Shown piece after piece: positions 8,228-27,287 of a DNA stretch of 34,083 nt (positions are counted from its first letter, which is position 1; each line of letters begins with the position of its first letter). Below the pieces are notes generated by a model. It searched no databases. It saw only the letters and a list, made by a program, of their open reading frames with translations, and had not been told where the DNA came from. Source of the stretch: Gemmatimonadota bacterium (GTDB lineage Bacteria; Gemmatimonadota; Gemmatimonadetes; Longimicrobiales; Gaopeijiaceae). Both the position numbers and the translations under genes were made by a program. The DNA lies in NCBI GenBank assembly GCA_028873845.1, contig JAPPNO010000037.1, positions 1 through 34,083 of the forward strand, given 5' to 3'.

Positions 8228-9063
8228 CACGGGAGCCACGGATACTTCCGGAAGTCCGGCTTCCGCTTCTGCAGGTAGGCGTCCCGCCCCTCCTGCCCCT
8301 GTTCGGTCATGTAGAAGAGCAGCGTGGCGTTGCCGGCCAGCTCCTGCAGCCCCGCCTGTCCGTCCACGTCCGCGTTCATGGCCGACTTCAGCAGCCGGAT
8401 CGCCAGGGGGCTGTGCTCGAGGATCCGTTGCGCCCACCTGAATCCCTCGTCCTCGAGCTCTTCCACCGGCACCACCTTGTTGACCAGTCCCATCTCCACC
8501 GCTTCGGCCGCGTTGTACTGGCGGCAGAGGTACCAGATCTCGCGCGCCTTCTTCTGCCCCACGATGCGCGCCAGGTACGACGAGCCGAAGCCCCCGTCGA
8601 AGCTGCCCACCTTCGGCCCGGTCTGTCCGAAGACGGCGTTGTCCGCGGCCAGGGTGAGGTCGCAGACGACGTGCAGCACATGGCCGCCGCCGATGGCGTA
8701 GCCCGCGACCAGGGCGATGACCGGTTTGGGCATGGTGCGGATGAGCCGCTGCAGGACGAGGACGTTGAGGCGCGGCACGCCGTCGCCCCCCACGTAGCCG
8801 GCGTCGCCGCGCACGCGCTGGTCACCGCCTGAGCAGAAGGCGTACTTGCCGTCCTTCGACGGGCCCTCGCCGGTGAGCAGCACGACCCCGATCGAGGGGT
8901 CCTCGTTGGCGTCGTTGAAGGCGTCGAGGAGTTCGAAGAGGGTCTCCGGACGGAAGGCGTTGCGCACCTCGGGACGGTTGATCGCGATGCGCGCAACGCC
9001 GTCGCGCTTCCCGTAGGTGATGTCCTCGTAGGACTTGACGGGCTGCCAATCGGTGGCGGTCAT
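8224..9063 (-). CDS. menB: 1,4-dihydroxy-2-naphthoyl-CoA synthase
   Basis: The 279-residue crotonase-fold enzyme closes the second ring of the naphthoquinone. It has the MenB-specific pattern: [20 protein letters not shown] near the N-terminus, [11 protein letters not shown] for the oxyanion hole, [20 protein letters not shown] and [20 protein letters not shown], then the C-terminal [13 protein letters not shown] seen in most MenB proteins. The ATG at 9063 overlaps the menD stop (ATGA) and the stop overlaps the menA start (GTGA), so it is translationally coupled on both sides. Confidence 0.97.
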
Positions 9064-10895
9064 GTCTCTTCCCGGTTCATGAGTTCGTGCACGCGGCGGG
9101 CGACCCGCGCGCGGGTGCGTTCGTGGCTCTCCCGGTTCCGCTCGCGGTCGGTCCGGACGCGGATGATCTCCGTGCCTGCGCGGCGGCAGGCGGCCGCGAC
9201 GGCCTTCTCCAGGTCGGCCGGGGTGGCCGCGTCGGTGAAGCGCAGTCCGTACAACTTCGCCGCGTGCCGGAAGTCGAGTCCGTGCGGCGTCGCAAAGTAC
9301 GGCGTGAACGCCGGCTCGAAGTCGCGGATGGGGAGCATGTGAAAGATGCCGCCCCCGTCGTTGTCCACCAAGACGAAGACGACGTTGAGCGTCCTGTCGC
9401 GCGCGGCCAGGAGGCCGTTCATGTCGTGGTAGAGGGCGATGTCGCCGATCAGGCCCACCACGGGACCGGCACCGCCCCCCGCGCACCCCATCACCGACGA
9501 GACGACGCCGTCGATCCCGTTTGCGCCCCGGTTGCCGAGCACCTGGACGTCCAGGGGGGCCGGGCGGCCGTACGCGTCGACATCGCGGACGGGCATGGAG
9601 GAGGAGACGAACAGGGTCGCGCCGGTCGGGAGAGCGCGGAGGGTGGCGGCCGCGTAGGCGCCTTCGTGGTCGGCGTCGGCGTGATCGTCCCCGATGGCGG
9701 ACCAGGCGGCCGCTTCGATCTCCGTCCAGGTGCGCGTCCAGGGCGAGTGGGGAGGCGGGTCAACGTCCTGTTCGTCGGCCAGCCGGTTGAGCACCCGTCC
9801 GGCCGACGCGTGAAGGTAATGCCGGGCGAGGCCCTGGTGGTCCTTGCGGTGCGCCCCGTCGTCGATCACGACCTGCGTGGCCTCGTGCCAGGTCTCCAGC
9901 GCACCCTCCAGTGCCCCCGAGGTGGGAGTGCGGCCGATCCGGATGATCAGGTCGGGGTGCAGCCGGCGAAGCACCTCGCCGTCGCGCAGGAAATGGTCGT
10001 ACGCACCCAGGACCGGGGCCGTCGGCGGGTCGCCGAGGGCGCGCTCGAAGCGGGCGCCGGAGAGAGGATCGGCGAGCGCGGGCACACCCGTTTGCGTGGC
10101 GAAGCGGACCACGGCCGGACCGTCCAGACCGGGATCGGTGACAGGACCCGCAACCAGGAGCGGCCGTTGCGCGGCCTCCAGGCGGTGGGCCAGCAGCGTA
10201 TCCTGGTCGCGTCCGCGCCCACGCCGGCCGGCCTCCCACCTGCCCGGCGCGCCGGCTTCAACCCGTCCGACCACCTCGGCGGCCGCGGTCAGATTCGGAG
10301 GCACCTCGCCGCCGCCACCATCCCGTTCCAGTCCCTCCGGCGCCTCCGGCTGCAACGGCTTGTCGAAGGGGACGTTGAGGTGCACGGGTCCCCCCGGAGG
10401 GCCCGTCGCCTGCCGCGCGGCGCGCCGCACGATCTCGATCACGGAACGGGGCCCCACCGCCCTGAGTCCGTGCACCGACGGCAGCGGAAGGTCGGCCTCG
10501 AAGCGCACCCGCTCGCCGAAGATGCCCGGCTGCAGGATCGTCTGGTTGGCGTCGGCACCGCGCATTTCCGGGGGCCGGTCGGCACTGACCACGATCAGCG
10601 GCACATCCGACATGTCCGCCTCGACCACCGCCGGCAGCAGGTTGGCCACCGCGGTTCCCGAGGTGGTGACGACCGCGGCCGGGCCCAGGTGGCTCCGCCC
10701 ATACCCGACCGCGAAGAACCCGGCGCAGCGTTCGTCCAAATGAACCCGGATCCTGATCCCGGCCAGCATCTGCGCGGCCAGCACCAGGGGAGCGGAGCGG
10801 GAGCCGGGCGCGATCTCCACCTCCTCGACGCCGCACTCCGCGAGGGCCTCGAGAATGGCGCGGGCCCACTTGAGGTTGAACTCGCCGCTGGTCAA
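9060..10895 (-). CDS. menD: 2-succinyl-5-enolpyruvyl-6-hydroxy-3-cyclohexene-1-carboxylate synthase
   Basis: The 611-residue thiamine-diphosphate enzyme condenses isochorismate with 2-oxoglutarate. The N-terminal domain shows [30 protein letters not shown] (with the catalytic Glu) and [18 protein letters not shown]. The central domain has a poorly conserved Gly/Arg-rich linker. The C-terminal cofactor-binding region shows [15 protein letters not shown] and [15 protein letters not shown]. The start is probably TTG at 10895, preceded by GGGGTG at an 8-base spacing and lying just past the menF stop; no ATG fits the family N-terminus. The stop overlaps the menB start. Confidence 0.95.
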
Positions 10896-10902
10896 CGCAC
10901 GA

Positions 10903-12300
10903 TCACCCCGAACCGGTCGCCGCATGTGCCGAGAACTCGGCGCGCGCGATCGCCCTGAGCACCGAATCGAACTTGAGCTCGGTCTCCTCCCACTCCAGCG
11001 ACGGGTCCGACCCGGGCAGGATCCCCGCCCCGGCGAAGAGGCGCCAGCCGGCGCCGCGCGAAACGGCCGAACGCAGCGCGGGCACGAACATTCCCTTTCC
11101 GTCCGATCCCATCCAGCCCACCGGTCCCGCATACCAGCCACGGTCGAAGACTTCGCTCCCGGTGAGGATCGAGAGGGCGGCGTTGCGGGGCATCCCGCAA
11201 ACGGCAGGTGTCGGGTGAAGAGAGGCGAGGATGTCGAGAAGCGTGACGCCTTCGGGGATCCCGGCGGCGATCTTGGTCTCCAGGTGCTGAATGCGGGCCA
11301 GGGTGAGCACATGCGGCTCGACGTCCCGCTCCACCGTGCAACCGAGCCCCGACAGTCTGGCCAACATGTCCCGGACCACGAGATCGTGCTCGGCCCGGTC
11401 CTTGTCGCTGTTGAAGAGACGGCGCGCCAGCTTCGCGGTCTCGACCGAATCGGCACCGACCCGCACGCTTCCGGCCACCGCCGTTGCGCGGACGACACCG
11501 TTCACCACCGTCGCAATCGTCTCGGGAGCCGCCCCCACCAGAGCCTCCGCGGGAGCGGGTTCGAAGAGAAACACATGGCTCCCGTGGCCCTCCTGCCAGA
11601 GCGCGAGGACCAGGTCCAGCGGGGGCACCGGACGGGTCGGCGTCACGTCCAGGGTGCGGGCCAGCACCACCTTCTCCGCCTCTCCGGCCTGGATCCGGTG
11701 GAGCGTCCGCCAGACCATCCGGCTCCAGGCGGCCCGCTCGGCGGCCCGCGCCTTCCGTGCCGGCCGGACGCCCGGCCTGCCGCGCCGGGGTGGCCCGGGG
11801 CTTTCCGCCGCGCCACTCCGCGACAGCGTGTCCGCCCACCGACCCCACGACTTCTCCGCCTCCTTCCGATCCGCGCCGCGGACCAGCAGTGAACACTGCC
11901 CCGCACGCGGATCGTGCTCCAGTTCGGCTTCGGGCAGCTGGAAACGGGCCGGCGGAAAGGAGGACCAGACCGGATCTCCGCAGGGACGCGCCGAGAATGC
12001 GAAACCTCCGAACAGACGTGCGCCGCCCTCTCCGCCGATCTTCGCGAACAACCGCGCCGAGTGGTCCTGGACGACAGCGAAGCGGGAACGTCGATCCGGC
12101 GACCCGGCGTCCTCCCGGCCACCGTCAACCCCGACTTCGGCGACCGCCCCCGCGTGGGCCACCCAGCGACGGCCGGATGCCCAGAACCCGCGCGGCTTGC
12201 CGTGGGCCGCGGCGAGAAAGGCGGCCGGCGAAACCGCGGTCAGGTCGCGCCGGATCTGGTACAGGCGCGGCCGCGTCTGCGGCAAAACGGGTCGCGCCAA
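10903..12300 (-). CDS. menF: Isochorismate synthase
   Basis: The 465-residue chorismate-utilising enzyme makes isochorismate for MenD. The catalytic C-terminal half shows AGEAEKVVLAR (the lysine acting as base), HVFLFEPAPAEALVGAAPE, SDKDRAEHDLVV, HPTPAVCGMPR, DRGWYAGPVGW and AGILPGSDPSLEWEETELK, the last holding Mg-binding glutamates. The family's usual AGT-R motif here reads AVAGSVRVGA. The N-terminal third is divergent, as is normal. The start is TTG at 12300 with GGGTG upstream. It follows the lipoprotein gene by 14 bases and precedes menD by 7, so it is an internal operon gene. A salicylate or anthranilate synthase role is unlikely given the men context. Confidence 0.93.
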   Translation of the reverse strand: MARPVLPQTRPRLYQIRRDLTAVSPAAFLAAAHGKPRGFWASGRRWVAHAGAVAEVGVDGGREDAGSPDRRSRFAVVQDHSARLFAKIGGEGGARLFGGFAFSARPCGDPVWSSFPPARFQLPEAELEHDPRAGQCSLLVRGADRKEAEKSWGRWADTLSRSGAAESPGPPRRGRPGVRPARKARAAERAAWSRMVWRTLHRIQAGEAEKVVLARTLDVTPTRPVPPLDLVLALWQEGHGSHVFLFEPAPAEALVGAAPETIATVVNGVVRATAVAGSVRVGADSVETAKLARRLFNSDKDRAEHDLVVRDMLARLSGLGCTVERDVEPHVLTLARIQHLETKIAAGIPEGVTLLDILASLHPTPAVCGMPRNAALSILTGSEVFDRGWYAGPVGWMGSDGKGMFVPALRSAVSRGAGWRLFAGAGILPGSDPSLEWEETELKFDSVLRAIARAEFSAHAATGSG

Positions 12301-12954: not shown

Positions 12955-15282
12955 ATGGGTGCGCTGGTCTCGTCCGCCGTGGGACCATATGTTTACGCCA
13001 TGTCCGAGACAACAACACGGCGCGAGGTTGCCGGGGCCGCGGAAAAGGACCTGGCGCGCTCCGATCATGTTACCCGGTCCGTACCGGCGCGTTCCTCCGG
13101 TCCCCCCGAACCGGCACGGTTTCGCACGCGCTGCGACCCCACTCCCATCCCGGACCCCACCGACGGGCACGACCTCGGCCGGCCGGAGTACTACCTGAAC
13201 CGCGAACTGACCTGGCTCAACTTCAACTTCCGCGTGCTGCACGAGGCCCAGGACCGTCGCACACCGCTGCTGGAGCGCCTGAAGTTCCTGTCGATCGTGG
13301 GGTCGAACCTGGACGAGTTCTTCATGAAGCGGATCGGGGGACTCAAGCAGCAGGTCGAGGCGGGGATCACCGAGCTCACCGTGGACGGCCGCACACCGGG
13401 TGAACAGATCGAGCAGTGCTACACGGTGGTACGCGAACTCGAGGCGCGGCAGCGGGCGACCGGGGCCGAGATCCTGGCCGCGCTGGCTGACGAGGGCATC
13501 CGGGTCACGTCGTGGCAGGAGCTCAGCCAGGCGCAGCGCAAGTGGCTGCGCAAACACTACGTACGCAACATCTACCCTCTGGTCACGCCCCAGGCGACCG
13601 ACCCGGCCCACCCCTTCCCGTTCATCTCGAACCTGTCGCTCAACCTGCTGGTCACCCTGCGCTACAAGGGTGACGAGCACACCTCGAAGGCACGGGTGAA
13701 GGTACCCGTGGGCGCGGGGATTCCGCGTTTCGTCCAGGTCGCCGAATCAGGGGACTGGGTACCGCTCGAGAGCGTCATGGCCAACAATCTCGACCTGCTC
13801 TTTCCCGGCATGAGAGTCGAGGACTGCGAGATCTTCCGGGTCACCCGGAACGCCATCTACGACGTGGACGAGGACATGGCGGACGACCTTCTCGAGCTGA
13901 TCGAGGCGGGGCTCCGGAAGCGTCACCTGGCCCCGATCGTGCGCCTGCAGGTCGAAGAGGGGTTCGATCCCGGACGGCGTACCGTGCTCGCCAACGAGCT
14001 CGGGCTGAGGGAGGACGACATCTTCGAGGGCGACGGGCTGCTGGGCTGGGCGGACCTGCTGGCGCTGCACGACCTGCCCTGGCCGGAGCTCAAGGATCCC
14101 GCACACCACCCCGCCGAGCACCCGGACCTGCTGACCAACCGCCCCATCTTCCACATCATCAGGGAGGACGGCCCGGTTCTGCTTCATCATCCGTACCAGG
14201 CCTTCGACACCTCGGTGCTCCGCTTCCTGCGCGAGGCGTCGCGGGATCCGAAGGTGCGCGCGATCAAGATGACCTTCTACCGCATGGCGCCACGGAGCAG
14301 CATCGTCGATCATCTGGTGCACGCGGCCCGCCAGGGCAAGCAGGTGGCGGTCGTGATCGAGCTGCGGGCGCGCTTCGACGAGGCCGCCAACATCCGGTGG
14401 GCGAACGCCCTGTCGGCACACGGCATTCACGTCACCTACGGGGTGCTGGGGCTGAAGACGCACTGCAAGCTCATCCTGGTCGTGCGCCAGGATCACGACG
14501 GGCTGCGGCGCTACGCGCATGTGGGGACCGGCAACTACCACGTAGAGACGGCCCGCCTCTACTGCGACCACGGCATCCTGACCTGCGACCCCTCGATCGG
14601 CGCGGACCTGACCGAACTCTTCAACTATCTGACCACCGGCTACCGTCCCAAGCGCAAGTACTGGAAGCTGCTGGTGGCTCCGAAGCATCTGCGCGGCGGA
14701 ATCCTGGACCGGATCGAACGCGAGATCTCGCTGCACTCGGAGGAATCCCCCGGCAAGCTCCAGTTCCAGATGAACGCGCTGGAGGACCCCGAGGTGACCC
14801 GGGCGCTGTACACGGCGTCCGCGAAGGGCGTGTCGGTGGACCTGATCGTGCGCGACGGCTGCCGTATCCGCCCGGGCATCCCGGGGCTTTCCGAGAACAT
14901 CCGGGTGGTCAGCATCGTGGGCCGTTTCCTTCAGCACTCGCGCATCTACTTCTTCCATAACGGCGGCGACGAGGAGTACTACATAGGCTCGGCGGACTGC
15001 ATGGGACGGAACCTTGGCGCGCGCGTGGAGGCGCTGGTGCCCGTCGAGGACGCCGCACTGCGGGCCGAGCTGCGCCAGGCGCTCGACATCCAGCTCTCCG
15101 ACCGCCGCTGCGCCTGGGAGATGGCCGCCGACGGCAGCTACACGCAGCGGACCCCCCCTCCGAAGCGCGAAACGTGCACCTTCGAATCGATGATCGCCTG
15201 GGCGCACGCGCGAGAGTTCGAGGGGACGCGGCTGCGGAACCGGCGGGCGGTGGGGTTGCTCGAGAGGTGGAAGCGGGACTGA
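12955..15282 (+). CDS. ppk: Polyphosphate kinase 1
   Basis: The 775-residue enzyme reversibly polymerises the gamma-phosphate of ATP into polyphosphate. The N-domain begins at YYLNRELTWLNFNFRVL (about residue 80) with SNLDEFFMKRIGGLKQQ. The phosphorylated histidine is in LKTHCKLILVVR (His503), and the second catalytic histidine in LQHSRIYFFHNGG (His661). Further PPK1 motifs are HVGTGNYHVETARLY and YYIGSADCMGRNLGARVE. About 75 residues precede the conserved start and look disordered. The ATG at 12955 has a GGGGAG close upstream, while an in-frame ATG at 13000 would also work, so the start is uncertain. It stands alone between divergent and convergent neighbours. Polyphosphate supply may matter for the DUF4956 operon further on, but that is speculation. 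Confidence 0.96.
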   Translation: MGALVSSAVGPYVYAMSETTTRREVAGAAEKDLARSDHVTRSVPARSSGPPEPARFRTRCDPTPIPDPTDGHDLGRPEYYLNRELTWLNFNFRVLHEAQDRRTPLLERLKFLSIVGSNLDEFFMKRIGGLKQQVEAGITELTVDGRTPGEQIEQCYTVVRELEARQRATGAEILAALADEGIRVTSWQELSQAQRKWLRKHYVRNIYPLVTPQATDPAHPFPFISNLSLNLLVTLRYKGDEHTSKARVKVPVGAGIPRFVQVAESGDWVPLESVMANNLDLLFPGMRVEDCEIFRVTRNAIYDVDEDMADDLLELIEAGLRKRHLAPIVRLQVEEGFDPGRRTVLANELGLREDDIFEGDGLLGWADLLALHDLPWPELKDPAHHPAEHPDLLTNRPIFHIIREDGPVLLHHPYQAFDTSVLRFLREASRDPKVRAIKMTFYRMAPRSSIVDHLVHAARQGKQVAVVIELRARFDEAANIRWANALSAHGIHVTYGVLGLKTHCKLILVVRQDHDGLRRYAHVGTGNYHVETARLYCDHGILTCDPSIGADLTELFNYLTTGYRPKRKYWKLLVAPKHLRGGILDRIEREISLHSEESPGKLQFQMNALEDPEVTRALYTASAKGVSVDLIVRDGCRIRPGIPGLSENIRVVSIVGRFLQHSRIYFFHNGGDEEYYIGSADCMGRNLGARVEALVPVEDAALRAELRQALDIQLSDRRCAWEMAADGSYTQRTPPPKRETCTFESMIAWAHAREFEGTRLRNRRAVGLLERWKRD

Positions 15283-15354: not shown

Positions 15355-16122
15355 CTACGGACCGGCGGCGCCGACCAGCTCGGCCACCGTCACCACCCTC
15401 CCCTTCCCCGCCCACCGCGCCAGCGTCCGGGCCTCCGGCTCGAGCCCGAGCCCCCACGTGGCGTCCCGCACCGCCGTCACCGCGTAGCCGCGCGACTGCA
15501 GCCCGTCGACGGCCTGGGTCATGCACACGTCGCGTGCCACGCCGATCACCACGAACTCGGGCGCGCGGCCGAGCGCATCGCCCAGCGACCGCACGAACGC
15601 CTCGCACGCCGGGTTGCCCTCGAAGACGTTGAAGCGCGTCTTGCGCACGAAGACGGGGCGCCGCTGCCTCACGGCGAGACGGGCCACGAGGACGGCCTCC
15701 TCGTCCACGGCGTCGTGGGTCAGCACGAGCGGGTCCTGCGGGCGGATCTCCGCAATCACCTCCGCGCCGGCGCGCTCGGCCGGATCCTCCGAGCGCCCCA
15801 TGCAGTGCGGCGGGTACGTGTCGCACGCCGGATCGGGCGCCACCGGGTCGATCTCGGCGTCGTCGAGGCCGTGCCAGTCGCCCGTGTAGACGATCACGTC
15901 GCAGTTCGCGCGCATCCATGCCGTGCCGGCCTCCAGCGCGGGGATCACCCGGGACGCGCCGGGATCCGAGTCGTCGAAGAGGTCGCGGACGTACAGACGG
16001 CCGTCCGGCCTCATGAAGTCCTCCTGCACATCGACGATCCAGCCGACGCGGGCCGGCTGGGGTGCCGCGCCGCCCGGCTTCGTCCCCCCACCCCCGGGCG
16101 AGTCAATGGCTCGATCCGTCAC
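15355..16122 (-). CDS. pncA: Nicotinamidase / isochorismatase-family hydrolase
   Basis: The 255-residue cysteine hydrolase most likely deamidates nicotinamide to nicotinate. The catalytic triad is visible: Asp31 in IVDVQEDF, Lys161 in FVRKTRFNVFEG and Cys200 in ARDVCMTQAV. The metal-binding segment characteristic of nicotinamidases follows the second strand: YTGDWHGLDD, then TYPPHCMGRS. The start is GTG at 16122, overlapping the stop of the phosphoribosyltransferase gene (GTGA). That product uses nicotinate, which supports nicotinamidase rather than isochorismatase even though isochorismate is made by the nearby menF. The first 25 residues are Gly/Pro-rich and probably disordered. Confidence 0.88.
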   Translation of the reverse strand: MTDRAIDSPGGGGTKPGGAAPQPARVGWIVDVQEDFMRPDGRLYVRDLFDDSDPGASRVIPALEAGTAWMRANCDVIVYTGDWHGLDDAEIDPVAPDPACDTYPPHCMGRSEDPAERAGAEVIAEIRPQDPLVLTHDAVDEEAVLVARLAVRQRRPVFVRKTRFNVFEGNPACEAFVRSLGDALGRAPEFVVIGVARDVCMTQAVDGLQSRGYAVTAVRDATWGLGLEPEARTLARWAGKGRVVTVAELVGAAGP

Positions 16123-17315
16123 TTCACCACCTCCAGTCTGTCGTTCGGCCGGTGCCAGCGCCCCGCCTTCGCCCTCGGCTCGCCCTCGACGAGCACGATA
16201 TCCGCCGTGTAGTCGTAGGAACCGCCCATCAGCGTCGAGCCCACGCCGTACAGGTCGACCGGCACGCCCGCCTCCTCGAAGGCGCGGATCTTGGCTGCAC
16301 CGAACCCTCCCGAGGCCACGATGCGCACATGGCCGAAGCCCGCCCGGTCCAGCGCTTCGCGCACCTTGCGCACCAGCCGCGAGTTCACGCCGCGCGGGTC
16401 GAAGTCGCCCATCTCGCCCTGCATGGACCGGTCGACCATGGTGCCGGAGGTGTCGAGGCGCACCCCCCACAGCCGCGCGCCCAGCGCACGGGCAACCGCC
16501 AGGGAGGTGCCCACGCTGTCGTTGTCGAAGTCCACCAGCGACACGATGCGCACCTCCTCGGAGAGCGACTCCGCGAGCGCCGCCGTCGCGGCCACCGTGT
16601 CCCCGCCGAAGGCCGCGATCAGGCCGTGCGGCACGGTACCGATCCCCGACGAGCCCCACCACGAGGCCTGGGCGTCGGTCGAGACCCCGATCGCGCCCGC
16701 CACGTGCGCCGCCCATCCGTCTCCGGTCTGTACCCGCCAGTGGTCGTGACGCGCCGGAAAGAACATGATCGACTTGGGCCACGCGGCCTCGACCACCGCG
16801 CGCGTGTTGGTCGCGATGCGGGTGCGGCGGCCCAGCACCCCGGCGCAGAGCGTTTCCAGGTGCACAAAGGCGGGGTACGGCCCGGTGATGAACATGACCG
16901 TTTCCCACGGGCTCGCGCGGTCGCCGTCGCGCAGCGAGCGGACCTTCAGGTCGGCGAAGCCGTAGCCCTCGGTGAGACACAGCTTGAGCATGCCGATGGC
17001 CTCGTCGGTGCCCGCCACGACCGCGTCGCGCTTCTGGAAGACCTGCATGGTGACGTTCGGGCCGCGTCCGCGCGCGAGCAGGAGGTCGCGGGCGCGCACG
17101 AAGTATTTGTCGGAGTAGTAGCCGCCCCGCATCTTCTCGACGGGGAAGTCGAAGATGGCCGGGTCGAGGCGCTCGGCGTGGCGGATGGGGGCAGGGGGCG
17201 TGGACGGCGTGGGGTCGCCGGACGGGGGGAGGTGGGGGGGGTGGGCCGAAGCAGGCGCCGCCCGGGCCGGCGGGGCGGCCGCGGCGGTTGTGCGACTGGG
17301 GTCTTCGCGTGGCAT
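16119..17315 (-). CDS. pncB: Nicotinate phosphoribosyltransferase
   Basis: The 398-residue enzyme transfers phosphoribose to nicotinate, giving nicotinate mononucleotide for NAD salvage. Family features seen: GGYYSDKYFVRAR at the start of the fold, VTMQVFQKRDAVVAG, ITGPYPAFVHLET, a central strand with SLVDFDNDSVGT, GVRLDTSGTMVDRS and the C-terminal phosphate-binding ASGGFGAAKIRAFE and YGVGSTLMGG. The first 45 residues are almost only Pro, Ala and polar residues, and no other start lies before the conserved region, so the ATG at 17315 is kept. It is cotranscribed with pncA. Being of the archaeal/short NAPRTase-QPRTase-like subgroup rather than the E. coli PncB type is my impression only. Confidence 0.87.
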   Translation of the reverse strand: MPREDPSRTTAAAAPPARAAPASAHPPHLPPSGDPTPSTPPAPIRHAERLDPAIFDFPVEKMRGGYYSDKYFVRARDLLLARGRGPNVTMQVFQKRDAVVAGTDEAIGMLKLCLTEGYGFADLKVRSLRDGDRASPWETVMFITGPYPAFVHLETLCAGVLGRRTRIATNTRAVVEAAWPKSIMFFPARHDHWRVQTGDGWAAHVAGAIGVSTDAQASWWGSSGIGTVPHGLIAAFGGDTVAATAALAESLSEEVRIVSLVDFDNDSVGTSLAVARALGARLWGVRLDTSGTMVDRSMQGEMGDFDPRGVNSRLVRKVREALDRAGFGHVRIVASGGFGAAKIRAFEEAGVPVDLYGVGSTLMGGSYDYTADIVLVEGEPRAKAGRWHRPNDRLEVVK

Positions 17316-18708: not shown

Positions 18709-19917
18709 TCAATACCGGCCCGAAAGCCCGCTGTGGGAAGGCCGGGCTACGATTCCCGGCGCCGAGCAGGGACTGGCGGGAGCATCCACCGTGTCACCAC
18801 GCACGAAACTCCCGCCATCACGCAGATACCCGTCCGCGTCGACGACGCAGTAGCCGAAGTGATCCTCGGTCGCTCGCACGTACACGAAATGATTGAAGGA
18901 CCCCCGGTCGTCCCGCGGTACCGTTCGCTCATCCTGGTGAAAGGAATCCGGCTCCTTCCCCCCGGCCCCCGTAACGAAATACCGGATGCCGTGCCGGGGG
19001 CGGAGCCGCGCGTACAGGTGCTGGTGGGCCTGAAAGACGACATCCACCCCGTGCTCACGGAAGGTCGGCTCGAGTTCGGCCCGTAGCGCCTCATCCTCAC
19101 GGCGGCATCCGAAACGGAACCACTGACATCTCTTTGGCGCGTATGCCGGATGGTGCATCGCGACGACCTTCCAGCGCGCGCTGGAACGCCGCAGAGCCTC
19201 GGCCAGCCAACGCAGTTGAGGCTGATCGGTGCCATGCGTGAGCTTGGTCTGCTCCTCGCCGAGCGTGTTGGAGTCGAGCACGAACACCTCGACGAGCGGC
19301 GGCTCCCCCGAGCGCGCATCGGCCTGTCCACCGCGCGCGCTCCGGGGCCAGTCGGGTTGCGCTGCCGGAATCTCGATCGAGTAGTAGCGGAGGCCGTCAC
19401 GGTAGCCGAATTCGGGCGTCGCCAGGTGGGATTCCACCTCGCACCCGGACGACGGGTCATAGGCGGTTCCATCCCGGCGAACGGGCCTCAGTCCCGACTC
19501 TTCGCAGTGCTGCACGTCGTGGTTGCCAAGCGCCGCGTGAACCCTCACTCCAAGGGAGAGAATGCCATGGTAGACATCGAGGAACCTGTCGCCGATGGAC
19601 TCCGTATGGCCGTGGTCGTAGACGTTGTCCCCCAGCAGGAAGACGTGAGAAACCGGCACGGCCTCGGCCTGGCGGCGGATCTGCGCCGCAACCCCCCGGG
19701 CGCGGTCGTCACCGGTACCGGTGTCTCCGACGAAGACGAACCGCGCTGCCGGGACCGTGTCCTGGAGCCTCGCGCCGAACGCCGCGCCGCCCGGAGGGCC
19801 GGCCAGGAACCGGACGCCGGTGCCGCACGCGCCAGCCAGGACGGCGACCACCAGAACGGTGCCGGGAACTCCGGCGGCGCCACAACTCAACCGGCACGAC
19901 CTGGAGACCGGAGGCAT
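18709..19917 (-). CDS. Calcineurin-like metallophosphoesterase lipoprotein
   Basis: This 402-residue protein belongs to the purple-acid-phosphatase-like group. The five metal-site blocks are in order: FVGDTGTGDD, LLGDNVYDHG, LGNHDVQ, AMHHPAYAP and FQAHQHLYAR. It carries an N-terminal signal with lipobox LAGAC, so it should be anchored in the periplasm or at the surface. The ATG at 19917 is preferred; a GTG at 19947, overlapping the previous stop by 11 bases, is also possible. The family removes phosphate from phosphomonoesters, phosphoproteins or nucleotides. It is the last gene of the operon headed by the kinase-like/Omp85 protein. This suggests it opposes or completes that protein's phosphotransfer, which is an inference from context. 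Confidence 0.88.
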   Translation of the reverse strand: MPPVSRSCRLSCGAAGVPGTVLVVAVLAGACGTGVRFLAGPPGGAAFGARLQDTVPAARFVFVGDTGTGDDRARGVAAQIRRQAEAVPVSHVFLLGDNVYDHGHTESIGDRFLDVYHGILSLGVRVHAALGNHDVQHCEESGLRPVRRDGTAYDPSSGCEVESHLATPEFGYRDGLRYYSIEIPAAQPDWPRSARGGQADARSGEPPLVEVFVLDSNTLGEEQTKLTHGTDQPQLRWLAEALRRSSARWKVVAMHHPAYAPKRCQWFRFGCRREDEALRAELEPTFREHGVDVVFQAHQHLYARLRPRHGIRYFVTGAGGKEPDSFHQDERTVPRDDRGSFNHFVYVRATEDHFGYCVVDADGYLRDGGSFVRGDTVDAPASPCSAPGIVARPSHSGLSGRY

Positions 19918-19936
19918 CCGAACGGGCGCCGGGATT

Positions 19937-20899
19937 CTACGGGGCACGGCGCCGCTCGTCGCGAGTCGCCCGCTTCGGATAGACGGTCAGGACGGCTCTT
20001 CCGCTACCGCCCTCGTCGGCGACGATCAGAGCTCCGTCCGCGGCGAGCGCGATCCCCTCGATCTGACGATGCCACCCGGCGGTAAACCGCTTTGCGGCCA
20101 GAACCTCGCCGGCCGGCGTCACCTCCGCGATGGCGTCCTGGCGGGCCGCGACCACGAAGTAGTTGCCGGACACCGGGTGTCGCTCGATTCCCGACGGGTG
20201 GTACCGGTTGGATCCGATCCGCCGAGCGAAGTCCGCCACGGGAACGACGGTGGGCGGGTCGCCACTCAATCGTTTCGTGTCGATGGACCAGCGGTACATG
20301 GCCACACGCCCGGCAAGTTCCTCGCTCCGCGCTTCCTTGCACATCAGCAGCAGCTCCCGCCCGCCCGGGTCATGCGCCAGGCCCTCGATTTCGCAGTCGC
20401 GGCCAACGCCCGTGGCATGTTCGCGGTAGAGAACCGACTCCCCGTCCCCCCCCTCGTGGCTCTCGTAGAGCCTGCCCGAACTCGTGACCAGGTAGATCCG
20501 TCCGCCGGCCACCGCGATTCCCTCGAAGTCGTCGGCGACCGGGCCCTTCCTGTCCGCCAGTTCGAATTCCTTGACGATCGAGCCGTCCCGGCGGTCGATC
20601 TCGAAGACCACGCCGACTTCGTCGTTGTGCGCCAATAGCCGGTGGTCGCTTGTGGTTGCCAGGCCGGAGATCTCCCGGAGCCGCCCCGGGAGTTCCACGC
20701 GAGTCGCATTCTCCGGATCCAGCACATAGTCCCCGAGAGATTCCCGGCTCTGGCCTGTTCGCGCGATCCCGCCATCGTCCGCGGGACCACGGGCCATGCC
20801 GATCGCGGCCAACAACAGGAGACAGGAGATACCCCCGAGGGCAAGTCCACCGCGCCGCCTCCATCGTCCTGCCTTCGCATTCATTTGGCCATGCTTCAT
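19937..20899 (-). CDS. Membrane-anchored SdiA-regulated-type beta-propeller
   Basis: The 320-residue protein has a basic N-terminus and one hydrophobic segment (LALGGISCLLLLAAIGMA), then a single propeller domain like the SdiA-regulated/YjiK family. Typical strands are LREISGLATTSDHRLLAHND, VFEIDRRDGSIVKEF, DDFEGIAVAGGRIYLVTS and CEIEGLAHDPGGRELLLMCK, ending with RQIEGIALAADGALIVADEG. The fold probably binds an extracytoplasmic ligand or acts as a lactonase-like or phytase-like domain; the function is unknown. Its ATG overlaps the stop of the DUF4956 gene by one base (TGATG), giving strong translational coupling. The phosphoesterase gene follows directly. Confidence 0.82.
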   Translation of the reverse strand: MKHGQMNAKAGRWRRRGGLALGGISCLLLLAAIGMARGPADDGGIARTGQSRESLGDYVLDPENATRVELPGRLREISGLATTSDHRLLAHNDEVGVVFEIDRRDGSIVKEFELADRKGPVADDFEGIAVAGGRIYLVTSSGRLYESHEGGDGESVLYREHATGVGRDCEIEGLAHDPGGRELLLMCKEARSEELAGRVAMYRWSIDTKRLSGDPPTVVPVADFARRIGSNRYHPSGIERHPVSGNYFVVAARQDAIAEVTPAGEVLAAKRFTAGWHRQIEGIALAADGALIVADEGGSGRAVLTVYPKRATRDERRRAP

Positions 20900-21600
20900 C
20901 AGGTCGAGTCCCCTTGGGGCGCCCCCGGGGCCTTCGCCTGTGCTTCAGGCGGAACGATTCTCCACCCGGACAACACCGCCGGCTCCGCTCCGTAGTTGCT
21001 CTTCCACACGGCCAGCGTTATCGCGACGAAGATCAGCGATGCGAGGTAGGCCACCGTGGTGAGCTGGGTGCCGGTCGCGAGTCCGATCCCGATGGCCATC
21101 AGCATGTAGACGGCGTCCATCGGTTCCTTGATCGTGGCTCGAAAGCGCACGGCGGCGACGATTCCGGCGAGGCCGAAGGCCAGCGGGAGGCTGCCCTTGA
21201 CCAGGAACACGACGAGCGCAATGCCGATCGGCGTCACGAGCAGCGCGTGAATGAACGATTGGCTGTACTTCTTGCGCGGGCGGGTCCAGCGGTACACCCA
21301 GGTGACGGGCAGCGTCACACCGAAGGCCAGCGTCAGCGCGAGCACGACCGGGACCGCGAGGGCCGGATCGGCCAGCTGGCTCACGCCTTCCTGATTGCCG
21401 AGCCGGTCGATGGCCAGCTGGATGTTCTCGAGCATGTCGGACACCTCGTCTCCGGCGGTGTACAGCGTACCCATCAGGAATCGGTCCCGTTCCTGGGAGA
21501 CATAGGAAAGCGCGCGCGGGAAGAAGTGAAACGCCCCCGCAAGGAACGCGAGCCACGACAGATAGTAGATGGCGAGACGGACGATGATGTTTTTCAGCAC
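20899..21600 (-). CDS. DUF4956 integral membrane protein
   Basis: The 233-residue protein has about five membrane segments: residues 5-27, a pair around 85-140, and two in the C-terminal half. The family signature is plain: PLAFGLAGIVAAVRFRATIK, then MDAVYMLMAIGIGLATG. DUF4956 genes are commonly found beside VTC-type polyphosphate polymerase domains and CotH-like kinases, so a link to phosphate-rich polymers or phosphorylation in the envelope is suspected from knowledge of other genomes. No VTC gene is in this window. It starts 20 bases after the Omp85/kinase gene, and its stop overlaps the next start. The segment between TM1 and TM2 contains a predicted amphipathic region. Confidence 0.88.
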   Translation of the reverse strand: MLKNIIVRLAIYYLSWLAFLAGAFHFFPRALSYVSQERDRFLMGTLYTAGDEVSDMLENIQLAIDRLGNQEGVSQLADPALAVPVVLALTLAFGVTLPVTWVYRWTRPRKKYSQSFIHALLVTPIGIALVVFLVKGSLPLAFGLAGIVAAVRFRATIKEPMDAVYMLMAIGIGLATGTQLTTVAYLASLIFVAITLAVWKSNYGAEPAVLSGWRIVPPEAQAKAPGAPQGDST

Positions 21601-21620
21601 GGGTTGTCTCCTTTCCTGGT

Positions 21621-24368
21621 TTAGAACATGTGGCCGGCGCGAACATAAACACCGGTCAGGTCACGGCCCTTCATCACGGCAAGGCTCAGTGTAGCGGCGC
21701 GTTCCAGGAATGACAGCCAGATCCCGCCCCCGGTGCCGTTGTGCCAGTCGTCGCCGTCGTCCGGATCACCGGGACGGAAAACCCGGCCCACATCGGCGGC
21801 TCCGAACAAGCCGAATTCTCCGGGCACCAGTATCCTCACCTCCGCCACCGCCACTCTCAGTTCGACATTCGCGTAGAGCGAGGCGTCGCCCGCGAAACGG
21901 TTCTTGTACAGACCGCGCACGGGGCCGTCCCCCTGGCGCAGGCCGACCCGGCCGGGTCCGCCCAGAAAGGCGCTCTCGAGGAAGGGATACCTCCCCCAGA
22001 CCTTTTTTCCGCCCACTCTCAGGGCCAGCGTGGGGTTGGCACGGATCCGCGCCGTCAGGTAGGTGCGTACTTCGCCGTCCACGCCTCCGAAGGCCGATTC
22101 CACATCCCATGCTTTCGCGTATCCCGCGACGGCAACGCGCGCGAAGAATCCGCGAGTCGGGGAGGTCGGATTGTCGCGGCTGTCGTACTCGATTTCGCCG
22201 CGCGTTCCCACCTGGCCGAAGGATCCCGTGCCGTACAGAGGATGTTCCAGGGAACCGATGAAAGAGCCTTCATTCGCGTCCTCGGGTGTTCTCGACCACT
22301 TGACGACCGGCCCCAGGCGGACGGTGAGCTTCGAGCGATGCGGCTCCGTCCCGCCTTCGGCCGCTTCCCCGTCCTCCGCTCCGGCTGCGAACTCGAGGGC
22401 CGGTGCGAGAACGAAGGTTCCCTGCCGCACCTTGTAGAAGGAGGACGGTTTTTCGAGCTGGAAGTCGTTGCCGAAGCCGGTGAATCGCGTCACCGCGAGT
22501 CCCGAGTACTCGACGGCCAGGTTCGCGTCGACATTGGGCCATACCCGGCGAAAGATGCCTTCATACGACGCAAACGGCTTGTAGCCCCGGCTGGCCATGC
22601 CGACGGAAAGGGAATGCCGGGACGCGAACGGACCCTTGCGGTAACCGAAGTTCGTCCGGCTGTGGGCCATTCGCACGAACGCACCCAGATCGGGATCCAC
22701 CCAGATGGTGGGGAAGGTGAACGCCTGGTGACCCCAGTCGAGTGCGTACCAGTCCGAGAAGGGACGCCGTGGCTGTATCGTGGCCGGGGGACGCCGGTAC
22801 GGGCGCTCATCGATGCCCGCACCCATGCCCTTCACAAACACGTTGTCCCCGCGATGGTCGTAGAAGCGGGTCCTCGAGGCACCGGCCTCGGATGCGTTGG
22901 TGAATGTGTCGCTCCCTCCACCGCCATCGATACGGATGGTAATCCTGCCCGCCGCGCCGACCACTTCCGCACGATCGGCGCCACCCCGGAGGTAGAGGCG
23001 GACCTCCCTGGTTTCCGCGTGACGGAAGGTCCGCTCGAACCAGGGCGGACTCTTCCCCTCCCCGGCCTCTCCCACGACACCGATCCGGACCACGAGATCG
23101 CCGTTCGCCAGGTGCTCGAAGCGCGCGTACTCGTCCTCGTCGGTCGCCTGGATCTCGACTTCGCGTGTAATCAGTCCGTAGTACCGGGCGGCGAATTCCG
23201 GCAATGCGTCGCGCCTCGCCCTGAGCGCCGCTTCGAGGCTTTCGCCGACGAGTTCATGGTACGGCGCGGGAAGCCGCCGCACCGCGTCGTCGATAACGGA
23301 ATCGACGAGAATCGTGCGCAACCAACCCACGGCCTCGTCCCAGGCGGCCCTGTCGAGCTCGGCCAGAAGCCGGCGATCCAACCCCCAGCCGTTGGTCGTC
23401 AGGCCGGCCACGCTCGGGTAGGTGTCCCTGAATCCGACCGCCCTCGGGTAGGGCTTGCGGACCAGCATCATGGCCAACCCGCCATAGTGGATGAACGCCT
23501 GGTCGCGATCCTCCGGTACCGGGAGCCAGGTGTGGCAGTCGCCGTCGGGAAACCGCGCCCATCGCCACTGTCCGGGATGACGGTCTCCGTCGCCGATGAC
23601 GAAGTCCAGCAATCTGGCCTTGAGGAAAGCCACGGCATCCACGCGCTCGCAGGAGCTGTCCTCGAGGTCGTCCAACATGTTCTCGGTCCCGCTGACCTTC
23701 CGTGAACCCGCGAATCCGGGCGTATCGTCCGGCCCCTCCGACGGATGCAGCTGCAGCGTTCCGATCAGGCCCGCGAACTCCTCGCGGTACTCCCCGAGCC
23801 TGGGATCGTCGGGAATCACGACGAGGCTGTACTTGGAATGGAGTATGCCGGCGGCCTCCATGAGTGGATCGACCACCAGCGCCCCCGTCGGCAGCAGCGC
23901 GCTGGCCAGGTCGTGGAGGACCTCGCCCACGACCGTGTTCCGCAGGGCGGCGGCCAGCCTTTTGGTGGTGTCCTTGTCGAGAGAGCGAACCACGTATCGG
24001 ATGCCGTCCGCCCCGGTGAAGTGGAGAGAGATCGACTGTCCGCCGCCGCCGGTTCGAAGCGGCGTGAGCCCGCCTCCGACGCTGTCGAGGTCAAGAACCG
24101 CGACCTCGATGGGGGTGTTCCAGAGGTCCCGGTAATTGTCCCCGTAGATCCAGCGCTTGACCGGACCGGCCCGGAATCGTTCGCCGGGAACCACAAGGTG
24201 GGTCCTGGCGCCCGGCGGCGGAATCGATCGGTGGATTCTGGTGCCGGCCACCGTCCGGGCCTCCTGGGGCGTGGCCAGGGCCGGGGTTGCAAGGGCAAGC
24301 GCCAGCGCGGGAAGGATGGTTCGCCGGGCCCGAACCCCGATGCGTGAAAACCGATCAGCTTTGCACAT
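21621..24368 (-). CDS. Kinase-like periplasmic domain fused to an Omp85/BamA-type outer-membrane barrel
   Basis: The 915-residue protein has a signal peptide with cleavage near Ala-32/Thr-33. A globular domain (about 40-400) has features of atypical kinases: a Gly-rich turn RTGGGG (105-110), a strand with VVRSLDKD (to residue 133), a catalytic-loop-like DGDRHPGQW (260-268) and a metal-loop-like EDRDQAF (286-292). The DRH..QW and DRD pattern recalls FAM20C/HipA/CotH-like kinases. A middle segment contains IRIDGGGGSDTF. The C-terminal 400 residues form a surface-antigen (D15/BamA/TamA) barrel with YDSRDNPTSPTRGFFARV, FLGGPGRVGLRQGD and a terminal Phe (AGHMF), the outer-membrane sorting signal. 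It heads the DUF4956/propeller/phosphoesterase operon. Kinase activity is inferred from motifs only. Confidence 0.85.
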   Translation of the reverse strand: MCKADRFSRIGVRARRTILPALALALATPALATPQEARTVAGTRIHRSIPPPGARTHLVVPGERFRAGPVKRWIYGDNYRDLWNTPIEVAVLDLDSVGGGLTPLRTGGGGQSISLHFTGADGIRYVVRSLDKDTTKRLAAALRNTVVGEVLHDLASALLPTGALVVDPLMEAAGILHSKYSLVVIPDDPRLGEYREEFAGLIGTLQLHPSEGPDDTPGFAGSRKVSGTENMLDDLEDSSCERVDAVAFLKARLLDFVIGDGDRHPGQWRWARFPDGDCHTWLPVPEDRDQAFIHYGGLAMMLVRKPYPRAVGFRDTYPSVAGLTTNGWGLDRRLLAELDRAAWDEAVGWLRTILVDSVIDDAVRRLPAPYHELVGESLEAALRARRDALPEFAARYYGLITREVEIQATDEDEYARFEHLANGDLVVRIGVVGEAGEGKSPPWFERTFRHAETREVRLYLRGGADRAEVVGAAGRITIRIDGGGGSDTFTNASEAGASRTRFYDHRGDNVFVKGMGAGIDERPYRRPPATIQPRRPFSDWYALDWGHQAFTFPTIWVDPDLGAFVRMAHSRTNFGYRKGPFASRHSLSVGMASRGYKPFASYEGIFRRVWPNVDANLAVEYSGLAVTRFTGFGNDFQLEKPSSFYKVRQGTFVLAPALEFAAGAEDGEAAEGGTEPHRSKLTVRLGPVVKWSRTPEDANEGSFIGSLEHPLYGTGSFGQVGTRGEIEYDSRDNPTSPTRGFFARVAVAGYAKAWDVESAFGGVDGEVRTYLTARIRANPTLALRVGGKKVWGRYPFLESAFLGGPGRVGLRQGDGPVRGLYKNRFAGDASLYANVELRVAVAEVRILVPGEFGLFGAADVGRVFRPGDPDDGDDWHNGTGGGIWLSFLERAATLSLAVMKGRDLTGVYVRAGHMF

Positions 24369-24503: not shown

Positions 24504-27287
24504 TCAGAATTCGTACTTCACCCTCACCAGTCCCAGCCGTCCCAACTCCGGCGCACCCACGAACTCCCGGTGCAGGTTGTTCAGCGCGTTGTACACGGTG
24601 AGTTCCAACCGTGCATTGGGCTGGAAGGGCAGCTGGTAGCCGGCCGTCAGGTCCAGCACGTGGTAGGCGTCCACCGGCCCGGCGAAGACGCCCGACCTCA
24701 TGTCGAAGCCGTCGGAGAAGCGCCAGCGCCCGTCGAGCAGGAAGCCGCGGGCGCGGTCGGTGAAGGCAATTGCCAAGGACCCCTTGTGGCTCGGTGCGTT
24801 CAGGGACAGGTCGTCGCTGCCGGGGCAATCGCCGTCCTCGTCGAAGTCGAAACACTCCGCGCTCTGGAACGAGTATCCCGCGGTCAGCGTGACGCGGTCG
24901 GAAGCCAGGACCTGCGCGGAGAAGTCGGCCCCCCAGTAGCTGGCCGACCCGAAGTTGCGGGAGCTCAGCAGGAGATCGGGAGCCTGGAACTGATCGGGGG
25001 CGACGACACCCACCGGAACGGACGAGAGCCCCGCGGCCAGTTCGGCGACCTGTTCGGCCGTCACGACTCCCGCCTGGATCAGCGCGGCGAGTCGGCTGCT
25101 CAGGAAAGCCACGGTCGCGGACGGGTCCAGGAAGACGCTCGGTGACTCCACCTTCAGGGCACCGACGAAATTCTCCACATCGGCGTAGTACACGTCGGCG
25201 GCGAGCCTCACGCGGTCCTCGATCAGCCCCTTGTAGCCCGCCTCGACGGAGTTGAAGACCGTGGGAACGAGCGCGGGAAGATCGGTGGGTCCCTTGTCGA
25301 GCGGGAAGGGGTCGCCCCCGGCCGGACCCAGCGCCTCCGGGTTGAAGCGCCGGAAGACCGTCGCCAGCGCGGGATCGGAGGGCACGTTGCCCGGACCGAG
25401 GAGGAACGGCCGCAGCCCTTCCGGCGCGAATTGCCTGACCAGCAGATCCCAGAACAGCGCCGCGTTCGCCGGGAACTGGCCCGGCACGAACGGAGATTGC
25501 ATGCAGTGCCCCATCAGGCCCCCGGAGCACCGGTCCGCGAAGGTCAGCCCGCCGGCCGGCACGCCGAACGCCCGCAGCCGGTAGCCGACGCCCGGCCCAA
25601 GCGGGAGGAAACCGGTCTCGATGTCGAGGAAGAGCGACGAGGTGGAGGGCGTGGCGAAGGCGCGGTTGTAGGTCAGGCGCAGGTTGTGGCTCTCGGCGGG
25701 ACGGAAGACGAGCGCTGCCCGCGGCGAGAAGTTCACACCGTCCAGACGGTTGTGCAGGTCGGCACGGAAGGCGGTGACCAGATCGAGGCGGTCGCTCAGG
25801 CGCGTCTCCGAATGCAGATACACGCCGGCCTCGACCAGTACGTCGTGGTCTTCGTTGCGGCCGTAGATGGTGCCCTCGGAGCGCGGTTCGATACGCTGCC
25901 AGTCGAGCCCGTAGGTGAAGCGCTGCCGCTCGCCCACGTCGCGCCCGTGCTGGAGCTGGGCCGCCCAGGTGCGCGACCGATCGATGATGGGGCCCCCGCT
26001 GCGCAGCAGGTAGCTGTTGTCGCCGGAGTGCGTCTGGTTCAGGAAGAACTGTCCGAAGAAGCGGCCCTTCCGCAGCCGCACCTGGCCGTAGCGGTACTGC
26101 CAGTCGTGGGTCTGCGCCGAGCCGACGCTCGTGAGGTTGATGCTGCTCAACGAGTTGTTCAGCCCGCCGGAGACGATGAACTCGCCGTCGGCGGCGAACC
26201 GGTAGTCGGTGCGGAGGTCGGCGAAGTAGCGTTCGTTGAGCGGATCGCGCACGCCGATGCGCGGATGGTCGGGGTTCGCCTCGCGAGCCGCCGCTTCCGC
26301 GGGGTCGACGTACTCCCAGTCCCTGCCGCGCAGGTATTGACCGGAAACCTTCAGCCCGAACCGCTCCGACACCGCGTGGGCACTGCGGAAGAGCACCTGT
26401 GCCAGCGACCGCTCGCCACCGGCCACCGACACGGTGCTGCCCGGTTTGTCGATCGGGGAGTAGGTGATGATGTGCATGACGCCTTCGGCCGCGTTGGGAC
26501 CGTAGAGCGCCGCGCCCGGACCGCGCGCCAGCTCGATCCGCTCGATGTCCATGTCGGTCGCCGGGATCATGTTGATGGCGTTGATCCTGAGCGCGGGGAT
26601 GCGCGCGTAGCGGTTGTCGACGATGCTCAGCAGCCGCCCCGACGACACGTTGTTGAAGCCGCGCACGACCACGTAGCTCTGGGTGAGCCCGGTGGATGCG
26701 AGGTCGACTCCGGGAAGCGTCCTGATGTGGTCGGCGGGTGTGCGCGCGATCATGCGCGAGATCTGCTCCCCGCTCAGGGTGGAGATGGAGGCCGGGGCGT
26801 CGAGTTCCTTCTCCTCGCGGCGCGACACGGTGATGACGAGCTGGTTGAGGGCGAGCGCGCGGGAGCGCAGCCGGATGGTGACCGGGACCGTGGCGCCGGC
26901 CTCGACGGCGACCCCGTCGGTGCGGGAGGTCTCGTAGCCGATTCGGGTCACGACGATGGAATGGGTGCCGGCCGGGACGGAAACACGAAACTCGCCTGAC
27001 GGGCCGGTGGCCGCGGACACGGCTTCCTGTCCCGGCACCTGGACGGCGGCGTCGGCGACGGGGGCGCCGGTTTCCAGATCGGTGACGGTTCCGGTGATCG
27101 TGCCCTGTTGAGTGGCGGCCGCGCCGGGGAACAGGGCCGACAGGAGCGTCACGATAAACAAGCCATTTAGCAGCCCGTGGACAAAATCCCCCCGGCATTC
27201 GAGCGGCGATGCATCCGGGCTGGACCGCGGAACCGGCCCGATCACGCTGTAAACTCCCGTTTCCAAGATGTCATGTTTACTATACAT
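24504..27287 (-). CDS. TonB-dependent receptor with carboxypeptidase-regulatory-like domain
   Basis: This 927-residue outer-membrane receptor is driven by TonB. After a hydrophobic signal (GLFIVTLLSALFPGAAAT, around residues 42-59) comes a carboxypeptidase-D-regulatory-like beta sandwich (GTITGTVTDLETGAPVADAA to about 145). The plug follows with APASISTLSGEQISRM, LPGVDL, VVVRGFN and RIELARGPGAALYGPNAAEG, then a 22-strand-type barrel ending in RVKYEF. An extracellular loop near residue 830 has DFDEDGDCPGSDD, which looks like a Ca-binding DxDxDG loop. The ATG at 27287 has AAGGA just upstream, but gives an unusually long 40-residue n-region; a GTG at 27245 with GGGAG at 8 bases is an alternative. 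The ligand is unknown; the uneven size of the loops suggests a large substrate. Confidence 0.92.
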   Translation of the reverse strand: MYSKHDILETGVYSVIGPVPRSSPDASPLECRGDFVHGLLNGLFIVTLLSALFPGAAATQQGTITGTVTDLETGAPVADAAVQVPGQEAVSAATGPSGEFRVSVPAGTHSIVVTRIGYETSRTDGVAVEAGATVPVTIRLRSRALALNQLVITVSRREEKELDAPASISTLSGEQISRMIARTPADHIRTLPGVDLASTGLTQSYVVVRGFNNVSSGRLLSIVDNRYARIPALRINAINMIPATDMDIERIELARGPGAALYGPNAAEGVMHIITYSPIDKPGSTVSVAGGERSLAQVLFRSAHAVSERFGLKVSGQYLRGRDWEYVDPAEAAAREANPDHPRIGVRDPLNERYFADLRTDYRFAADGEFIVSGGLNNSLSSINLTSVGSAQTHDWQYRYGQVRLRKGRFFGQFFLNQTHSGDNSYLLRSGGPIIDRSRTWAAQLQHGRDVGERQRFTYGLDWQRIEPRSEGTIYGRNEDHDVLVEAGVYLHSETRLSDRLDLVTAFRADLHNRLDGVNFSPRAALVFRPAESHNLRLTYNRAFATPSTSSLFLDIETGFLPLGPGVGYRLRAFGVPAGGLTFADRCSGGLMGHCMQSPFVPGQFPANAALFWDLLVRQFAPEGLRPFLLGPGNVPSDPALATVFRRFNPEALGPAGGDPFPLDKGPTDLPALVPTVFNSVEAGYKGLIEDRVRLAADVYYADVENFVGALKVESPSVFLDPSATVAFLSSRLAALIQAGVVTAEQVAELAAGLSSVPVGVVAPDQFQAPDLLLSSRNFGSASYWGADFSAQVLASDRVTLTAGYSFQSAECFDFDEDGDCPGSDDLSLNAPSHKGSLAIAFTDRARGFLLDGRWRFSDGFDMRSGVFAGPVDAYHVLDLTAGYQLPFQPNARLELTVYNALNNLHREFVGAPELGRLGLVRVKYEF
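27248..27265. promoter_or_regulatory. Second copy of the TGTAAAC-N4-GTTTxCA site
   Basis: TGTAAACTCCCGTTTCCA matches the site at 6910-6927 with one arm mismatch and the same spacing. It overlaps the 5' end of the TonB receptor gene, and a further half-site GTTTAC is at 27275-27280. Placement at the start of a receptor gene fits a repressor site. Confidence 0.4.

Follow-up and report, generated by a model that had tools for sequence, protein, structure and literature searches.

What does a kinase-like domain do when it is carried on an outer-membrane barrel, and from what donor would it take phosphate? The question is raised by a four-gene operon in contig JAPPNO010000037.1 (34,083 nucleotides), the whole of which was analysed as one window and which belongs to a 4.05-Mb Gemmatimonadota genome. 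The first gene product, named KinOmp here, joins a predicted kinase fold to an Omp85-type barrel and is followed by a DUF4956 membrane protein, a β-propeller and a calcineurin-like phosphoesterase (Table 1). We propose, with a probability of about 0.45, that these proteins belong to an extracytoplasmic kinase–phosphatase phosphotransfer module fed by polyphosphate synthesis.

Operon and gene products

The four minus-strand genes form a coupled operon. Genes 1 and 2 are 20 bases apart, genes 2 and 3 meet in the sequence TGATG (20903–20899) and genes 3 and 4 overlap by 11 bases; the single, tightly coupled operon claimed in a preliminary description of this DNA is thus borne out by the gene coordinates. 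A TonB receptor (24504–27287) was rejected as a further member, since an equivalent was present in one close relative only. A defence system was likewise rejected, as PADLOC gave no match for any of the four proteins.

Most of the assignments in the preliminary description held. Gene 2 matched DUF4956 (PF16316) with 43.0 bits against a gathering score of 30.6, and the Phytase-like match of gene 3, together with its hydrophobic N-terminus, agrees with a propeller that has an N-terminal membrane anchor or a signal. In gene 4 the metal motifs of PF00149 are complete (GD 74, GDN 106, GNHD 141, HH 264, HQH 307), as expected of the phosphoesterase that had been claimed. Its description as a lipoprotein fared less well: a hydrophobic stretch is present at residues 20–38, but LAGAC does not form a canonical lipobox.

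Fold and anchoring of KinOmp

Residues 51–530 of KinOmp were modelled from an alignment of 19 relatives [predicted local distance difference test (pLDDT) 89.6, predicted template-modelling score (pTM) 0.90]. The top matches in a Foldseek search of the PDB were all kinases (CtkA, 1.5e-5; PI4KIIα, 3.9e-5; Golgi casein kinase, 3.4e-4; CotH, 6.5e-4). VIA-align matched model residues ~38–351 (KinOmp residues 88–401) to PI4KIIβ (Z 15.6, 262 residues, 4.4 Å), CotH (Z 15.0, 247 residues, 4.0 Å) and CtkA (Z 14.5, 241 residues, 4.7 Å); HipA gave Z 11.8. Residues 56–401 are accordingly modelled as a two-lobed protein-kinase-like (PKL) fold, so that structure prediction returned the kinase fold on which the earlier assignment depended. 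Sequence searches were silent on this point: the N-terminal half had no family match in Pfam, and a sequence comparison with solved structures gave a weak match for the barrel and none for the kinase. Neither KinOmp nor any other protein of the window's genome matched the CotH profile (PF08757); KinOmp is therefore taken at most to work like CotH and is not classified as CotH.

The kinase-like motifs noted previously (VRSLDK, GDGDRHPGQW and PEDRDQAF) were all found. Residues K132, D262, Q267, D287 and D289 are invariant in 25 full-length relatives of ~30–70% identity, and their presumed catalytic and metal-binding roles were read from the motifs D-R-H-x-x-Q and D-x-D-x-x-F rather than from a superposition. 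The DRHxxQ loop was present in 125 of 129 proteins; 80 loci had been selected with the pattern DR[HSG]xxQW, so that independent support for the loop comes from the 41 loci found otherwise.

In the full-length model (pLDDT 81, pTM 0.80) the N-terminal helix 14–27 corresponds to the signal peptide and the kinase extends to residue 401. The C-terminus is modelled as a 16-strand barrel of the Omp85 superfamily, with Foldseek matches to BamA (6.9e-9) and TamA (1.4e-8). Profile matches to Pfam Omp85 (E = 1.7e-4) and NCBIfam Omp85_fam (3.3e-26) were both under the cut-off, and a KinOmp relative from Larkinella matched Pfam Omp85 above it (6.2e-10). Profile and BamA-like fold together uphold the outer-membrane barrel that had been claimed for gene 1. 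A search of model residues 403–514 for a POTRA domain found no β-α-α-β-β unit. Omp85 barrels usually have their N-terminal part in the periplasm, and the kinase domain of KinOmp may lie in the periplasm or, alternatively, be displayed at the surface.

Two observations on the gene itself were made in relatives. In a genome of the same genus (G017:C1:2840275–2841030) the KinOmp frame lacks residues 138–797, in frame, with DUF4956 and propeller genes still downstream; this is either a natural deletion or an assembly error. Six loci (L075, L079, L080, L117, L057 and L103) have two KinOmp genes each, in tandem or close together.

Table 1 Coordinates of the operon, its domains and motifs, the Ppk1 gene and transporters near KinOmp. 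Positions are those of the window unless a locus is named.
Feature	Position	Strand	Remarks
Gene 1, KinOmp	21621..24368	−	915 aa; signal peptide, predicted kinase-fold domain, all-β linker and Omp85 barrel
Gene 2, DUF4956 membrane protein	20899..21600	−	233 aa, GTG start; four strong hydrophobic segments; Pfam 5.4e-11
Gene 3, Phytase-like/SdiA-regulated β-propeller	19937..20899	−	320 aa; N-terminal hydrophobic anchor or signal; Pfam 2.5e-8
Gene 4, calcineurin-like phosphoesterase	18709..19947	−	412 aa, GTG start; Pfam Metallophos 9e-14
Predicted kinase-fold domain, KinOmp 56–401	23166..24203	−	Model pLDDT 89.6; PI4KII, CotH and CtkA matched by both Foldseek and VIA-align
K132 codon (VRSLDK), presumed β3 lysine	23973..23975	−	Invariant in both KinOmp alignments; role by motif
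GDGDRHPGQW, presumed catalytic loop (D262, Q267)	23565..23594	−	Role by motif
PEDRDQAF, presumed metal-binding motif (D287, D289)	23493..23516	−	Role by motif
All-β linker, KinOmp 403–514	22827..23162	−	No POTRA pattern in model
Predicted 16-strand Omp85-type barrel, KinOmp 547–911	21636..22730	−	BamA Z 22.1 over 525–911; Foldseek 6.9e-9
Ppk1 polyphosphate kinase	12955..15282	+	Only PP_kinase gene found in the window's genome; unfused; 3.4 kb from operon
TLC transporters	L125:7604–9897 (Myxococcota)	+	Abuts KinOmp; with cyclic nucleotide monophosphate (cNMP)-binding proteins
TLC transporters	L136:585–2821 (Myxococcota)	+	Abuts KinOmp; with cNMP-binding proteins
TLC transporters	L094:12635–15971 (Aminicenantes)	+	Near KinOmp; with cNMP-binding proteins
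TLC transporter	L045:4462–5916 (Gemmatimonadota)	+	Near KinOmp
TLC transporter	L047:12389–13801 (Gemmatimonadota)	+	Near KinOmp

Recurrence of the gene set

Linkage was counted in 200 Gemmatimonadota genomes. KinOmp matches were present in 61 of them (39 of 93 genera), and a KinOmp gene lay within 10 kb of 36 of the 119 DUF4956 genes, against 0.54 expected by chance; 35 of the 119 had KinOmp within 5 kb. The pairs at 10 kb were drawn from 34 genomes, 22 genera and five families. Among the matches listed, relatives of KinOmp occur in Gemmatimonadota, Bacteroidota, Ignavibacteria, Latescibacterota, Poribacteria, KSB1 and Myxococcota. A restriction to one genome was rejected on these grounds: gene pairs are linked far above chance, and the genes are neighbours in many genera and phyla.

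Neighbours within 6 kb were counted in 118 KinOmp loci using our own gene calls. Phosphoesterases were found in 65 loci (in 26 as part of the same chain), propellers in 46, DUF4956 in 42 and Ppk1 in 30. All 23 Bacteroidota loci and both Rhodothermia loci encode a single-chain phosphoesterase–kinase–barrel protein of ~1,130–1,320 aa, with a propeller near 15 of these 25. The phosphoesterases near KinOmp fall into at least three lineages; the pairing has accordingly been re-formed, not passed down from a single origin alone. Only the close relatives L032, of the same genus, and L073 have the four genes in exactly the order of the window; other loci show rearrangement, fusion or replacement of the parts.

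The L073 set, from a genome labelled Acidobacteria bacterium bin61, has a kinase domain 74% identical to that of the window and reflects either horizontal transfer or a misassigned bin. In 19 of the 118 loci a Ser/Thr protein kinase of the ordinary type is found near KinOmp, and in two cases (L036:15276–17702, minus strand; L037:14112–15128, minus strand) such a kinase sits directly between DUF4956 and Ppk1.

Predicted kinases and polyphosphate synthases around DUF4956

DUF4956 genes that lack KinOmp tend to have another secreted protein beside them. A family of ~350 aa, designated A3, was found in 18 of 20 examined loci of this kind. It had no match in Pfam or NCBIfam. Its motif (NTDWS..ALHN, ~15 residues, then PxxYDFDWSG) resembles that of CotH proteins of the same phylum (NVDGNL..ST ... 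PxWDFD). The A3 profile gave no significant match to KinOmp or CotH, yet its best-scoring local alignment covers the presumed catalytic motifs, and the assignment of A3 as a putative CotH-like secreted kinase family is thus drawn from the motif. Across the phylum, 54 of the 119 DUF4956 genes are near A3, 36 are near KinOmp and none is near both (Fisher 8e-13, ignoring relatedness; 21 genomes possess both families). A weak CotH match lies near two of the other 29 (G090 and G147). Examples of A3 are found at L154:9423–10457 (plus strand), L165:6568–7725 (minus strand) and L170:9034–10137 (plus strand).

Polyphosphate synthases recur with both kinase types. In many relatives the operon partner of KinOmp, of ~1,050 aa, is a Ppk1 with an N-terminal CYTH domain (profile matches above the cut-off, 1.7e-8 in L059 and 1.1e-6 in L046). 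The triphosphate-tunnel fold is common to CYTH and VTC proteins. The CYTH family has been treated elsewhere (PMC8233210). The N-terminal region of these fusions (alignment A4) occurs in 33 places in the 200 genomes; a secreted kinase lies within 10 kb in 28 of them (KinOmp in 16, A3 in 12) and DUF4956 is near in 21. Examples (L059:4984–8175, L046:5472–8684 and L056:12144–15302, all on the minus strand) have an extra unassigned region between the CYTH and Ppk1 parts, and such genes almost always stand beside DUF4956 or a secreted kinase. VTC was found beside KinOmp in Larkinella loci only; one of these (L130, 7977–16887) combines a propeller, a phosphoesterase–kinase–barrel protein, CotH (9.7e-62), VTC (1e-27) and DUF4956 (2.5e-50). 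Predicted kinase types without detectable sequence similarity have DUF4956 and polyphosphate synthases in common, which suggests a likely setting for DUF4956, a domain of unknown function. The link to polyphosphate, hinted at earlier by way of DUF4956, proved stronger than supposed, Ppk1 being a frequent operon partner of KinOmp. No paper joining DUF4956 and polyphosphate was found in the literature searched, which leaves out most subscription journals.

Proposed mechanism and alternatives

In the module that we propose, the Omp85 barrel would keep a kinase domain of the PI4KII/CotH/HipA type in the periplasm or on the cell surface. The calcineurin-like phosphoesterase would act on the same pool as the kinase, making phosphorylation of its acceptor reversible, and the propeller may act as a scaffold or a sensor. 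Within the inner membrane, DUF4956 would connect the module with polyphosphate synthesis by CYTH-fused Ppk1 or by VTC, and polyphosphate made in the cytoplasm might pass by or through it. Polyphosphate would then be the phosphoryl source, directly or via a nucleotide, for catalysis in a compartment where ATP is thought to be lacking. The earlier reading as a system of reversible phosphorylation or of a phosphopolymer gains from the kinase fold, the cross-phylum linkage and the Ppk1 partners, but the exact four-gene set itself is confined to close relatives.

Any kinase that acts outside the cytoplasm must obtain phosphoryl groups from some donor. Where the spore-coat kinase CotH gets its ATP has been called an unanswered question (PMC7821199). 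Polyphosphate is a concrete candidate that, if correct, would explain kinase action where ATP is absent. A stricter version, in which polyphosphate from Ppk1 or VTC crosses the inner membrane via DUF4956 and is the direct donor for interchangeable secreted kinases (KinOmp, CotH and A3) with a fused or adjacent phosphatase, seems doubtful to us.

Several points weigh against the proposed module. In the window Ppk1 lies on the strand opposite to the operon and 3.4 kb away, which makes its linkage to the operon no more than suggestive. In over half of the 118 KinOmp loci neither DUF4956 nor Ppk1 lies within 6 kb. We know of no kinase of the PKL type of fold seen in KinOmp that uses polyphosphate. 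Finally, transporters of the TLC ATP/ADP family lie near KinOmp at five loci and point to a nucleotide donor there.

This last point favours an alternative in which KinOmp uses a nucleotide to phosphorylate envelope proteins or glycans, and the polyphosphate genes adjoin it through shared phosphate or energy-stress regulation or through ATP regeneration. The fold relatives PI4KII, CotH and HipA use ATP (for CotH assays, see PMC7821199). Two Myxococcota loci have a TLC transporter directly next to KinOmp and three other loci have one nearby, and neither DUF4956 nor Ppk1 is among the neighbours listed at any of the five; the numbers are small, but as a lead they would be in keeping with a different supply of donor. 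As a general partner of KinOmp the transporter was rejected, since the 200-genome sample has a single case, whereas the kinases show tight linkage to DUF4956 and CYTH-Ppk1. Ordinary nucleotide use is a serious rival, although we consider it less probable than the proposed module.

Less likely still, though also a serious rival, is that polyphosphate is the product, the module making, exporting and anchoring a surface polyphosphate or phosphopolymer, with the kinase priming or capping the acceptor and the phosphoesterase acting as an endopolyphosphatase like Ppn1/Ppn2. The combination of Ppk1 or VTC with DUF4956 and Metallophos enzymes would suit this, and in Gram-positive pel loci a set of CotH, polyphosphate polymerase and DUF4956, without demonstrated function, adjoins Pel exopolysaccharide genes (PMC7112168). 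The required priming role for the kinase lacks support, however, and many loci have no polyphosphate synthase nearby.

The kinase domain could also be a non-catalytic binding domain (a pseudokinase) on a barrel working as translocon or anchor. Omp85 barrels insert or translocate proteins, and Q267 occupies the position of Asn in HipA and PI4KII; invariance of the lysine, the catalytic-loop Asp and both DxD aspartates over the range of identity given above makes this improbable. Chance adjacency, to which the rarity of the exact gene order might point, is ruled out by the counts for DUF4956 and the 118 loci, with pairs linked in 22 genera, five families and other phyla.

Comparison with known systems

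Every fold in the module is already known. PI4KII (9hhm), CtkA (3akk) and HipA (2wiu) have the same fold as KinOmp but are lipid or cytoplasmic protein kinases without a barrel or polyphosphate neighbours. The secretory FAM20 kinases (4kqa and 5yh0; Foldseek E 3.4e-4 to 1.8e-3) are, like KinOmp, extracytoplasmic and have their own problem of donor supply; they differ in being eukaryotic Golgi enzymes to which ATP is supplied by import. PlpD-type (type Vd) proteins share with KinOmp an N-terminal enzyme on a 16-strand Omp85 barrel, but PlpD has a patatin lipase and POTRA where KinOmp has a kinase and an all-β linker. The yeast VTC complex, with Ppn1/Ppn2, couples polyphosphate synthesis to membrane passage and to Metallophos enzymes; it has no kinase–barrel protein, and DUF4956 is not known as a relative of its membrane parts.

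The CotH spore-coat kinase (5jd9 and 5jda; PMC7821199) resembles KinOmp in fold, DxD motif and extracytoplasmic action. It differs in that KinOmp shows at most 13% identity in the structural match and no match at the sequence level, and has its own DRHxxQ loop spacing and the barrel fusion. Closest in gene content is the pel-associated CotH/VTC/DUF4956 set already in print (PMC7112168), in which, as in the window with its 20-base spacing, a secreted PKL kinase stands beside DUF4956; the polyphosphate polymerase is shared with relatives of the window's operon. The differences are that KinOmp is of another kinase subfamily and fused to Omp85, that Ppk1, often CYTH-fused, replaces VTC, and that a phosphoesterase and a propeller are added. 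Descriptions of a barrel-anchored kinase, of such a kinase fused to a phosphoesterase, or of DUF4956 as the common partner of several kinase types were not found in the literature searched; as most subscription journals lie outside it, this absence is weak evidence.

Other genes in the window

Two further minus-strand groups represent ordinary metabolism and lie outside the finding: a menaquinone-type set of UbiA, thiamine pyrophosphate (TPP)-enzyme and chorismate-binding genes (7310–12285), and an isochorismatase/QRPTase pair (15355–17315).

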